A stretch of DNA of 64,000 nucleotides from a bacterium (GTDB lineage: Bacteria > Patescibacteriota > Saccharimonadia > Saccharimonadales > Saccharimonadaceae): NCBI GenBank assembly GCA_030530825.1, contig JAUMUF010000001.1:1-64000 (forward strand). The letters run 5' to 3'. Made by a program: the position numbers and the translations under genes. This document shows positions 19,196 to 51,498 of the stretch, piece by piece. The notes under the pieces are model-generated. The model searched no databases, was not told where the DNA came from, and was given only the letters and a program-made list of their open reading frames with translations. Positions within the stretch are counted from its first letter, which is position 1; the number at the start of each line of letters is the position of its first letter.

Positions 19196-19759
19196 TCAAT
19201 ACCAGGACGAAACACCGCCGTGCCTTGAACAAGCACCCCTGCCCGTAGCAGAACTCATACTTCCATCGCGACAGAACGCGCCACTTCTAATTGGCGGAGA
19301 ATAAACTCGAGGAGAACTAAATCTTGGACTATAGTTGTATCTAGTCGTAGAGTAGTTATATCCTCGATAACCCCCACCGCCTCCACCGCCGTAGTAATTG
19401 TAAGATTGTGGAGCAGGTACTGGAGTGGGAGGTGGCGGTGGTGCTACGTATTTGTATTTGGTTATTACGATATGCTCGTTTGTTGGCTTGTATTTGGACT
19501 TGCGACTTAGTTCTTTTTTGGTTTTGCTATTACGACAAACCTCATCTTGTCCGTTTGAGCCGGTTATTGTAGTTCTTCTGGATTTTTCTTTTCCACCAAG
19601 TGATTGGTCGTGAGTGTTAAATTCATCTTCAGAAGTTGTCGTCTGAAACTTAACAATCTCATTACTACATACAGTTCTGTTCTCGTAGGCATCTATACCG
19701 AAAGGTAAAGCAATCACCGAGAGCATAATAAATAATAACCAGCCTAAGTTTTTATTCAT
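19196..19759 (-). CDS. Exported G5-like plus DUF3761-like protein (187 aa)
   Basis: A signal or anchor helix (about 6-24) is followed by a G5-like region (about 32-107: EIVKFQTTT ... IVITKYKYV), a proline then glycine/tyrosine-rich linker (seven glycines in a row near 126), and a C-terminal DUF3761-like module (about 165-187) with the pattern C-x-DG-x-S-x3-ATGRGACS-x-HGGV. A paralogue lies at 50485-51009. It probably acts at the cell surface, possibly binding glycan; both domain calls are from motif recognition. AAAGGAT lies 8 nt before ATG. Confidence 0.7.
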   Translation of the reverse strand: MNKNLGWLLFIMLSVIALPFGIDAYENRTVCSNEIVKFQTTTSEDEFNTHDQSLGGKEKSRRTTITGSNGQDEVCRNSKTKKELSRKSKYKPTNEHIVITKYKYVAPPPPPTPVPAPQSYNYYGGGGGGGYRGYNYSTTRYNYSPRFSSPRVYSPPIRSGAFCRDGSMSSATGRGACSRHGGVSSWY

Positions 19760-48171: not shown

Positions 48172-50397
48172 ATGGCTAAAAAATCTACCAAAAAATCAAC
48201 TAAATCTAAGTCTGCTCCAGCGCGCGCACCGATGTTGCCTGCTGGGTTTTGGGAGCAAGTTTTTGCTGTGTTCTTGGGGATTTTTAGCCTGTTTCTGGTA
48301 ATGGCGTGGTTTGGCATTGGCGGTCAAGCGATGGCGGTGATACATAGCGGCATCCAGACTTTTATGGGATGGGCGGTTTTCTTTTTGCCGTTTGTGCTGA
48401 TTTTTTTGAGCGTGGAGATTTTTCGAGATGAGAAAAATAAGTTGCCGTATGGCAAGGCAGTTGCGTTCTTCTTTGCGCTGATATTTATCGCGTCTTTCTT
48501 TGGTCTTTTTAAGGGGAGAAGTGGAGTGGCTTTTGGTGGAATGCTTGGCTCGTTCACTAATAATTTTGCTCTCCAGATCGTCAATCCGTTTGTTGCGGGG
48601 ATTGTTTATCTGTTTGCGGCAACTACAATTATTTTTGCAATTTTTGGTATTATGCCGATTGATGCTATTAAAAAAATTGGCGAAATGCTAAAAACGGCTG
48701 ATTTTGAAAAGTCAGAAAAGGGCAATAAAAAAGTTCTGGAAGCGCTTAAAATTGATAAAAACCAAGATATGGTTGATGAAATCTCTGATGAAGGTCAGAA
48801 GATTAAGTTAAATGCGGGCGTGGAGATTTTGGGTGAGCCCGAAAAACCGCTTTCGAGAAGAGAAAAGCGTGCCTTGATTGTGCGAAAGCAAAAAGAAGAT
48901 ATTGGAGAAAAGGAATCGGACGCAGAGAGAGCGCCTTCGAATATAGATGATTCTAACTGGAAACTGCCAGAGATTGGTTTGCTAAGTCGAGATCAAAGTC
49001 CGGCCGACGCTGGTGATATTGATGGAAATGCGCGCAAAATCCGCGAGACTTTTGCTGAATTTGATATCAGTGTCGAGATGGAAGCCGCCAATGTTGGTCC
49101 GCGTATCACGCAATATACTTTACGACCTCCACGCGGGGTCAAATTGAGCCGCTTTAATGGCTTCGAAGATAATCTTCGCTCGGCTTTGGCTGTTGAAACT
49201 GTGCGTGTTGAAGCGCCAGTTCCGGGTAAGAGCGTTGTTGGTATTGAGGTTCCCAATAAAAGGGCTGCAACTGTGCGCCTTGCTAATATCTTAGAAAGTA
49301 AGGAGTGGAAAAAGTCTCACGGACCGCTAACTTTTGCTGTTGGAAAAGATATTTCGGGCGAAACTATCGTTGGCGACCTCGCTAAAATGCCGCATCTTTT
49401 GATTGCTGGAACGACCGGTTCTGGTAAGTCTGTGATGATGAATACTCTTTTAACGTCGCTTCTTTATCGCAATAGTCCTGCGCAACTTCGGTTAATTCTT
49501 GTTGACCCAAAGCAGGTCGAAATGGCGCCGTATGAAGACATTCCTCATCTTTTGACCCCCGTTATTCAGGATCCGACCAAGACAGTTTCTGCTTTAAAAT
49601 GGGCGGTCAATGAAATGGAGCGTCGATATTCTATTTTGGCGGAAAAGAAAATTCGAAATATCGAAAGTTACAATAAAACCGTTAAGGCTATTTCGGAAGA
49701 AGAGCGAGAAGAGTCTGGCGAAGAATCAATGCCATACATCGTGATCGTGATCGATGAGTTGGCGGATTTGATGATGGTGGCAAGTAAGGACGCCGAGGCT
49801 TTGATTGTGCGAATTGCCCAAAAGGCGCGGGCGGTTGGCATCCACTTGGTGCTTGCAACACAGAAGCCAGTTGTTTCTGTTGTGACTGGATTGATTAAAG
49901 GAAACGTGCCGAGCCGAATTTCTTTCAAATTGCCATCGAACTCCGATTCCCGAACAATTCTTGATCGCGGTGGTGCGGAAAAATTGCTCGGTCAGGGTGA
50001 TATGCTTTATTTCCCTAACGGTGCGCCAGATCCTAAGCGTGCGCAAGGAGTATTTTTACAAGATGAAGAAGTTAATGCTGTGATGAATTATCTCAGGCTT
50101 CAATCTCCTCCACGCTATAACGACGACATTATTAGTCAGCCTGTTAATATAAATAACGGCGGAGTAGTGATGGGTGAAGGTTCTTCTTCCATGGATGAAA
50201 CTTTCCGTCAGGCTGTTGAGATTGCTATTCGGCAGGGTAATATCTCGACAAGCCTTCTTCAACGCAAAATGCGAATTGGCTACGGCCGTGCTGCAACCAT
50301 TGTTGACCAAATGGAAGAGCGTGGAATTGTCGGTCCAAGCCCAGGCGGTTCAAAACCACGAGAAGTTTTGATTTCGAGTTTAGAGGAAATAGAATAA
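48172..50397 (+). CDS. ftsK: DNA translocase FtsK
   Basis: FtsK pumps chromosome ends to the division septum. Four N-terminal membrane helices (about 30-150) lead to a short linker, the alpha/beta motor with Walker A AGTTGSGKSVMMN and Walker B YIVIVIDELADLM, KAVGIHLVLATQKP-like sensor region, and a C-terminal winged-helix gamma domain (QGNISTSLLQRKMRIGYGRAATIVDQ). The 741-aa length lacks the long linker of E. coli FtsK. TATAAT lies 10 nt before ATG. Confidence 0.96.
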   Translation: MAKKSTKKSTKSKSAPARAPMLPAGFWEQVFAVFLGIFSLFLVMAWFGIGGQAMAVIHSGIQTFMGWAVFFLPFVLIFLSVEIFRDEKNKLPYGKAVAFFFALIFIASFFGLFKGRSGVAFGGMLGSFTNNFALQIVNPFVAGIVYLFAATTIIFAIFGIMPIDAIKKIGEMLKTADFEKSEKGNKKVLEALKIDKNQDMVDEISDEGQKIKLNAGVEILGEPEKPLSRREKRALIVRKQKEDIGEKESDAERAPSNIDDSNWKLPEIGLLSRDQSPADAGDIDGNARKIRETFAEFDISVEMEAANVGPRITQYTLRPPRGVKLSRFNGFEDNLRSALAVETVRVEAPVPGKSVVGIEVPNKRAATVRLANILESKEWKKSHGPLTFAVGKDISGETIVGDLAKMPHLLIAGTTGSGKSVMMNTLLTSLLYRNSPAQLRLILVDPKQVEMAPYEDIPHLLTPVIQDPTKTVSALKWAVNEMERRYSILAEKKIRNIESYNKTVKAISEEEREESGEESMPYIVIVIDELADLMMVASKDAEALIVRIAQKARAVGIHLVLATQKPVVSVVTGLIKGNVPSRISFKLPSNSDSRTILDRGGAEKLLGQGDMLYFPNGAPDPKRAQGVFLQDEEVNAVMNYLRLQSPPRYNDDIISQPVNINNGGVVMGEGSSSMDETFRQAVEIAIRQGNISTSLLQRKMRIGYGRAATIVDQMEERGIVGPSPGGSKPREVLISSLEEIE

Positions 50398-50425
50398 AAG
50401 TCAGATTATGGCTTTTATTTTTTGA
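50396..50425 (+). terminator. Weak terminator of ftsK
   Basis: AAAAGTC and GGCTTTT can pair, followed by ATTTTTTG. Confidence 0.45.
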
Positions 50426-50443
50426 TGAAATGTTGTTTATCTA

Positions 50444-50478
50444 TTGACTTGACCGTTTTTTTTTTTTTTTGATATAAT
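50444..50478 (+). promoter_or_regulatory. Promoter with T15 spacer tract and double -35
   Basis: Two overlapping -35 boxes (TTGACT 50444-50449, TTGACC 50449-50454) are followed by a spacer made almost wholly of 15 T residues (50456-50470), then TATAAT (50473-50478). Spacing from TTGACC is 18 nt. Tract length changes would shift promoter spacing. Confidence 0.75.
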
Positions 50479-50484
50479 TTCGAT

Positions 50485-51009
50485 ATGAAAAAAGTCAAGG
50501 ATATTTTACTGAATATATTTATCGGCGCTATTTACTCAATTCCTATCGTTATTTTATTTTTGGGAGTTGCTTCTGTTGTCGTAGCTGTAATTTCTGGAGG
50601 CTCTGGGAAACTTGATAGTGATACGGCTACGAATAGAGTTACTAACAATAGCTTTAACTGCTATAAAGAAATAATACACTTCAAGACAGAAGAGACCGAT
50701 GATTATGATAGCGAAGAAACCTATGATGAATCTCTTGATGGCGAGGAGCATTCTCGAGAAATCGTTCAAGAAGGAGAAGATGGCGAAAAAGAGATATGTA
50801 AAGGCGATGACGGAAGGGTTGAAGAGCATATCGTACAAGAGCCAGTCAATCAAATTGTTGAAATCAAAAAATATGAATATGTTGAGCCCGATTACTACGA
50901 AGAAGAAAGTAGGGTTGGTGCTATATGTATGGACGGATGGCATAGCTATGCTACAGGAAGAGGCGCTTGCTCTTGGCATGGAGGAGTTAATTATTGGCTT
51001 TACGAGTAG
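50485..51009 (+). CDS. Membrane-anchored G5-like plus DUF3761-like surface protein (174 aa)
   Basis: One N-terminal anchor helix (about 12-36) leads to a G5-like domain (about 60-130: EIIHFKTEETDDYDSEETYD ... EPVNQIVEIKKYEYV) and a C-terminal DUF3761-like module (C-x-DGWHSYATGRGACSWHGGV). The paralogue at 19196-19759 has the same order. TATAAT lies 6 nt before ATG, so it is leaderless. The T15 promoter tract suggests on/off variation. G5 domains are known to bind N-acetylglucosamine; that role is inferred here. Confidence 0.75.
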   Translation: MKKVKDILLNIFIGAIYSIPIVILFLGVASVVVAVISGGSGKLDSDTATNRVTNNSFNCYKEIIHFKTEETDDYDSEETYDESLDGEEHSREIVQEGEDGEKEICKGDDGRVEEHIVQEPVNQIVEIKKYEYVEPDYYEEESRVGAICMDGWHSYATGRGACSWHGGVNYWLYE

Positions 51010-51114: not shown

Positions 51115-51498
51115 ATGGCTATAAAATTTAAAGCGGTTTCTCTACCAAATCCAACAAATAAAGAGGTGGGAAATAAATTTTATCCGCGGGCGATAAGTTC
51201 TGGAATGGTTGGCTTGAAGGAGATTGCTGGGAGGATTTCGAGCAAGTCTACCACAGTTTCGGATATTGATACGTATGCGGTTTTGATGGCTTTAACTAAG
51301 GAGTTGGGCAAGGCGATCCACGATGGTGAAACTGTTCATCTTGGTGATTTGGGGTATTTTCATATAACTCTCAAAGGTACGGGCGAAATTGATGAAAAGA
51401 AAGTTTCAGCTTCAAATATCGAAAAGGCAAATTTGCGGTTTGTTGCAGGGCGAGATATTGAAGCAAGTTTAAAGACAGCAAAGTTTGAAAAGATTTAG
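51115..51498 (+). CDS. HU family DNA-binding protein, HU-HIG type
   Basis: A 127-aa protein resembling the HU-related family common in Bacteroidetes: AIKFKAVSLPNPTNKEVGNKFYPRAI at the start, a helical dimer core (TVSDIDTYAVLMALTKELGKAI), a strand pair GETVHLGDLGYFHITLKG and a C-terminal FVAGRDIEASLKTAKFEK. It lacks the ordinary HU arm sequence. AGAAGGAG lies 8 nt before ATG. Possible transfer from a Bacteroidetes member of the community. Confidence 0.85.
   Translation: MAIKFKAVSLPNPTNKEVGNKFYPRAISSGMVGLKEIAGRISSKSTTVSDIDTYAVLMALTKELGKAIHDGETVHLGDLGYFHITLKGTGEIDEKKVSASNIEKANLRFVAGRDIEASLKTAKFEKI

Follow-up and report, generated by a model that had tools for sequence, protein, structure and literature searches.

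A T15 homopolymer in a promoter spacer as a likely phase-variation switch ahead of a putative surface-protein gene in a member of the Saccharimonadaceae

The locus and its promoter

The window analysed here is a 64-kb stretch of a 687-kb genome of the family Saccharimonadaceae (G000, the genome under study). Between ftsK and the gene of an HU-HIG DNA-binding protein it carries a gene for a 174-residue protein, preceded by a promoter whose spacer contains an uninterrupted run of 15 T's (T15). The features of the locus are as follows:

48172..50397, plus strand: ftsK, upstream neighbour
50392..50420, plus strand: hairpin with T-rich tail at the ftsK end, likely terminator (fold, -11 kcal/mol)
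50444..50449, plus strand: TTGACT, upstream -35-like hexamer; 23-bp spacer to TATAAT, 17-bp register only at T9
50449..50454, plus strand: TTGACC, likely -35 element; 18-bp spacer at T15, 17 bp at T14
50456..50470, plus strand: T15 homopolymer, proposed slipped-strand switch in the promoter spacer (sequence, run counts)
50473..50478, plus strand: -10 element TATAAT, 6 nt ahead of the start codon; predicted leaderless mRNA
50485..51009, plus strand: gene putatively controlled by T15, encoding a 174-aa membrane-anchored protein (sequence, profiles, predicted model)
51115..51498, plus strand: HU-HIG DNA-binding protein, downstream neighbour

Read directly from the window, the promoter string at 50444-50487 is TTGACTTGACC-G-T15-GA-TATAAT-TTCGAT-ATG, in which the tract is flanked by G at 50455 and GA at 50471-50472, the starts of TTGACT and TTGACC are separated by 5 bp, and the ATG at 50485 directly follows TTCGAT. 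An earlier note, made from sequence alone, had described a spacer of G, 15 T and GA with TTGACT and TTGACC 5 bp apart ahead of it, as well as a paralogue at 19196 without such a tract, and all of these observations held. Because TATAAT ends only 6 nt before the ATG, the mRNA of this gene should be leaderless, while the hairpin at the end of ftsK probably shields the promoter from read-through; both points are inferred. Across 258 kb sampled from the genome (the window and 10 stretches), -10 hexamers ahead of the first ATG of long open reading frames peak at 6 and 7 nt, with 26 and 16 cases, and number no more than 7 at any other distance. Approximately one fifth of the long reading frames in the sampled stretches appear leaderless, with a -10 hexamer 6-7 nt before the ATG.

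The gene product and its paralogues

The 174-residue product combines an N-terminal membrane segment, a G5-like domain at approximately residues 56-132 and a C-terminal DUF3761-like motif (CxDG...GRGACSxHGGV), which recurs in two paralogues of the same genome. Both family assignments remain below the Pfam gathering scores, with G5 (PF07501) reaching 14.9 bits against a cut-off of 23 (E 0.03) and DUF3761 (PF12587) 18.7 bits against 29 (E 0.0026); the DUF3761 score of the paralogue at 19196-19759, 26.3 bits, is likewise under 29. Compared with the PDB, the predicted model of the product (pLDDT ~90 in the G5-like region) matches the G5 domains of the staphylococcal adhesins SasG and Aap, with a best E of 1.3e-4. 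This predicted fold match supports likeness only, not membership of the G5 family. The predicted G5 fold and the N-terminal anchor together suggest a surface-exposed protein.

19196..19759, minus strand: paralogue with a DUF3761-like C-terminus, without homopolymer, with AAAGGA upstream of its start and no leaderless -10 element

A protein scan of genome contigs found no relatives of the 174-residue product, and its relatives at family level are few and weak. The HU-HIG neighbour, which is not conserved in the genus, failed as a synteny anchor. No ortholog with a variable tract was found, and tract variability at this gene therefore rests on analogy.

Rarity and placement of long runs

The longest run in the window after T15 is 8, T15 being the sole run above that length. 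In the whole genome, T/A runs of at least 11 number three (T15, T16 and T24), and extrapolation from run lengths leads to an expectation of ~0.05 runs of at least 15 per genome. T24, at C1:421581, was dismissed as a switch since it forms the tail of an intrinsic terminator, and T16, at C1:269029, was put aside as a spacer switch as its run covers the -35 position. The latter (C1:269029-269044, or L008:5030-5045; minus strand) lies 12 nt upstream of TAAAAT-GGAGTT-ATG at an ABC-transporter ATPase gene, and changes in its length would be expected, from sequence alone, to affect the region upstream and not the spacer.

G/C runs of at least 8 number four in this genome, and all four are located between TTGAC and a -10 element:

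C1:112163: G14 spacer, ahead of an MKDFN/MKNFN protein
C1:123895: G10 spacer, ahead of an MKDFN/MKNFN protein related to the product of the G14 site
C1:166126: G9 spacer, ahead of a secreted protein; adjoins rpmA and an MKIAILGRQ gene
C2:22430-22437 (L163), minus strand: TTGACA-G8, ahead of a 32-residue Gly/Cys-rich peptide

A G9 spacer also stands at the position corresponding to this G9 in the sister genome G004, there with a different secreted protein downstream. The 32-residue peptide behind G8, MTKFDVIVFSNDNECPESGDIGGGGCPQCEDW, is encoded directly after a methyltransferase-like gene and could be a small secreted or modified peptide. Members of the MKDFN/MKNFN family (L160 and L161 in the genome under study, L121 in G004) lie behind G9-G14 spacers and have no signal peptide, the two members of the genome under study having a conserved 5' leader in common; their export via another route is conceivable.

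Spacer register

Ordinary promoters, taken as TTGAC...TANNMT pairs in the 258-kb sample, define a clear baseline: 29 of 41 have a 17-bp spacer, and lengths of 15, 16, 18 and 19 bp account for 2-5 each (12 together). A 17-bp spacer likewise predominates in other genera, at 14 of 21 ordinary promoters against 7 at neighbouring lengths. Among tract promoters with spacers of 15-19 bp, by contrast, only 7 of 101 measure exactly 17 bp and the remaining 94 measure 15, 16, 18 or 19 bp (Fisher 2e-14 for the 17-bp share against ordinary promoters of the genome under study). This value was counted over related sequences and with a small ordinary baseline; kinship among the sites reduces the weight of the p-value, while the contrast itself is little affected. 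The possibility that the 17-bp gap is an artefact of the G8 search pattern was rejected, as the gap persisted when the pattern was relaxed to G6. None of the five tract promoters in the genome under study has a 17-bp spacer: T15 gives 18, G14 23, G10 19, G9 18 and G8 16.

The simplest reading of the missing 17-bp spacers, and a likely one, is that the assemblies record most tract loci in a weak or OFF configuration, expression itself being inferred; mostly-OFF loci are usual in large phase-variable repertoires. An 18-bp spacer may nevertheless remain active. Since T15 gives 18 bp and the optimum is 17, the loss of one T brings the optimum back, and a change of 1-2 nt in the tract shifts the spacer across the organism's optimum. 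The proposal in the earlier note that tract length selects between the two -35 boxes is unlikely, because TTGACT would need T9 and TTGACC only T14, and because other tract promoters use a single -35 element.

Sister species and pilin promoters

In this genus, the genes under tract promoters are chiefly those of type IV pilins. Dispersed pilin genes number ~34 in G001, which we take to be Candidatus Saccharibacteria bin JAGOOS01 (Go_SlPrim_bin_30), ~20 in G002, taken to be RZZT01 (INTA.CYC.001), 7 in G003, and 2 each in G004 and the genome under study. In G001, runs of T8-T14 occupy the spacer region of 10 of 24 distinct pilin promoters, and all runs of T13 or longer lie inside pilin promoters; spacers in G002 contain T9-T12 and G8-G12, and those in G003 G9 and A11. 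The occurrence of different bases at the same promoter place favours a length switch over a sequence-specific site.

Evidence for variation in tract length is indirect as regards variation within a species. A pilin locus common to G001 (C42) and G002 (C22) differs over ~550 bp only by a single coding SNP and in the tract, which reads GCG-T12 in the former and GCA-TTTTC-T11 in the latter. Additionally, G001 pilin paralogues with the same downstream (3') flank carry T7, T8 and T13. MutS (PF00488) was not found in any of the five genus genomes, with the control found in 11 of 14 reference genomes.

In G001 and G002, roughly twelve pilin reading frames (e.g., L077, L089, L115 and L119) have no in-frame ATG, and LTPELNHH...RWNSSSQ, a lengthy conserved leader, is common to several of these. 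The frames may represent silent cassettes or contain an inserted repeat element.

Two alternative explanations bear on these observations. Under the first, the tract is a fixed spacer element, either a rigid run of T's or a run of G's bound by a protein, which tunes promoter strength without its length being varied functionally. Promoter strength can respond to T-rich spacers, and G tracts cluster at 9-10, both of which speak for this explanation. However, T, G and A tracts interchange in the promoters of one pilin family, which a base-specific site excludes; tract lengths range from 8 to 17; spacers avoid the 17-bp optimum, which fixed tuning does not predict; and runs so long slip in any known replication system. 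A fixed element is therefore considered unlikely.

The second alternative, that assembly or sequencing error conceals a shorter or stable tract, draws on the error-prone nature of homopolymer calling and on some G001 contigs that end at tract borders: two contig pairs break exactly there, with a 127-nt overlap. Such breaks are expected if reads carry several lengths, but repeats could also cause them. Against an artefact, genomes that were assembled independently have tracts at one and the same place in the promoter, with intact flanks, and real length heterogeneity would equally yield such contig breaks, leaving this explanation very unlikely. The data nonetheless consist of assemblies only, without reads, RNA or a second strain, and assembled homopolymer lengths may err by at least 1.

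Spread across the family and phylum

The tract phenomenon is much wider than the T15 site, constituting a family-wide set at the same promoter place. With the reversed pattern as control, spacers with G8 or longer were recovered at ~125 sites, compared with 2 matches for the control, in 31 of 198 family genomes and in 21 of 61 genera; the other 167 genomes had none. Relaxing G8 to G6 adds few sites: lengths of G9 and G10 are the most frequent, and G6-G8 make up only 16 of 134. Spacers with T10 or longer are confined to 3 of 198 family genomes, all in the genus of the genome under study (6 matches against 0 in the control). Elsewhere in the phylum, G8+ spacers are sporadic (14 of 379 other genomes, with 3 control matches), and none were found in other sampled families of the order or class.

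A strict leaderless poly-T promoter pattern matches 20 places in 85,000 species, including four in Saccharibacteria, all of which open pilin genes. Six of the 20 lie in Elusimicrobia (L051, L052, L053, L055, L059 and L063), with L052 opening a pilin-like gene; these may constitute an independent case.

Genes downstream of tract promoters

Of 84 genes downstream of G tracts, 49 appear to encode exported, membrane-anchored, pilin-like or collagen-leader proteins, against a background of 54 of 223 genes of the genome under study (p 4e-8). Pfam searches of 83 G-tract downstream proteins returned collagen repeats (10), N-methyl pilin motifs (6) and TIG domains (5). In one genus group (e.g., G023, G091 and G010), many of the downstream proteins are cytosolic-looking and unknown, and surface genes are therefore not the whole story. 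A recurrent family, M[TP]RLP.PG...WG.ILNDYLS, lies behind G-tract promoters in several genera, most members having collagen repeats (L164, L172, L178, L182, L197, L198, L200, L201, L213, L217 and L225).

These distributions also bear on the possibility of chance or mutational bias, whereby neutral long runs in mismatch-repair-poor genomes would happen to land in intergenic promoters. The failure to find MutS in the five genus genomes, as well as the location of T24 and T16 outside clean spacers, are compatible with this explanation. It is, however, very unlikely in view of the reversed controls (2 against ~125 for G8+, 0 against 6 for T10+), the placement of all four G/C runs of at least 8 in spacers, the 167 of 198 family genomes with none, and the surface bias of the downstream genes.

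The proposed switch

T15 is likely a slipped-strand phase-variation switch in a sigma-70-type promoter, with the slippage rate and the transcriptional effect inferred. Replication slippage would add or remove T's and thus shift the spacing of TTGACC and TATAAT about the 17-bp optimum, such that T14 would be strong, T15 (as assembled) weaker, and T16 or more weaker still. Each cell line would thereby transcribe the leaderless surface-protein gene at a high or a low level, as determined by chance. The promoter anatomy, the 17-bp optimum, the recurrence of G, T and A tracts at this promoter place in at least 31 genomes, the surface bias, the failure to find MutS and the two-locus difference in tract length are established. 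The purpose, like the rate and effect, is inferred, and may be to vary the episymbiont surface in the face of host range, phage or immune pressure.

Anatomy and comparison thus give good support to the earlier claim that a surface protein is under a slipped-strand promoter switch, namely through the 17-bp optimum, related G, A and T tracts, the surface bias, the failure to find MutS and the differing tracts at the common locus, while switching itself remains an inference. A bolder reading, more likely than not, is that many Saccharibacteria, apparently without MutS, possess promoters throughout the genome that switch at random by means of G, T or A runs in the spacer. With most loci OFF at any time, such promoters would continually change the pilins, collagen-like proteins and other surface proteins on display in each episymbiont cell.

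Relation to known systems

The closest parallel is found in Neisseria meningitidis, where porA, fetA and opc carry homopolymers between the -10 and -35 elements (PMC2791445), the opc tract being poly-C (PMC3960869). As at porA, opc and fetA, a homopolymer between -35 and -10 precedes a putative surface-protein gene, its length setting the spacing (PMC2791445). In contrast to Neisseria, the present case lies in a different phylum, uses T and A tracts besides G, involves leaderless or near-leaderless starts at the T15 gene and the pilins, and extends in sister species to many pilin loci per genome; moreover, switching is proven in Neisseria, whereas in Saccharibacteria it is inferred. In Helicobacter pylori, the adhesin gene sabA phase-varies through slippage of a repetitive tract in its promoter region (PMC2715451). 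The sabA tract is a T-tract positioned outside the -35/-10 spacer, and it is resembled more by T16 at the ABC-transporter gene than by T15.

Within the Patescibacteria (CPR), a hypervariable repeat gene of the slippage type has been described in the genome of Gracilibacterium BD1-5 (PMC6851277); it differs in consisting of coding 9-mer repeats in one gene, and the paper mentions neither promoter nor homopolymer. In Nanosynbacter lyticus TM7x, which has 12 pilin genes, type IV pili drive host binding and motility (PMC12206443). Type IV pilins are similarly prominent in the genus studied here, where they stand under tract promoters; the TM7x paper contains no mention of homopolymers, and its relevant passages use 'phase' only for phase contrast or phase plate. 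No prior report of phase variation in Saccharibacteria, Patescibacteria or CPR was found in the open-access literature searched, subscription papers and preprints being outside that search. Promoter-spacer phase variation thus appears to be undescribed in Patescibacteria and, if true, this would be its first case.

Significance

Patescibacteria are streamlined episymbionts whose host recognition remains poorly understood. If the proposed switch is real, its random action on pilins and other proteins of the surface would account for differences in host range and attachment between strains and between cells. The idea could be tested directly in deep metagenomes that are already available and in those Saccharibacteria that can be cultured and genetically manipulated. 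A clonal culture would then be a mixture, with consequences for the interpretation of knock-out and host-range experiments in these organisms.
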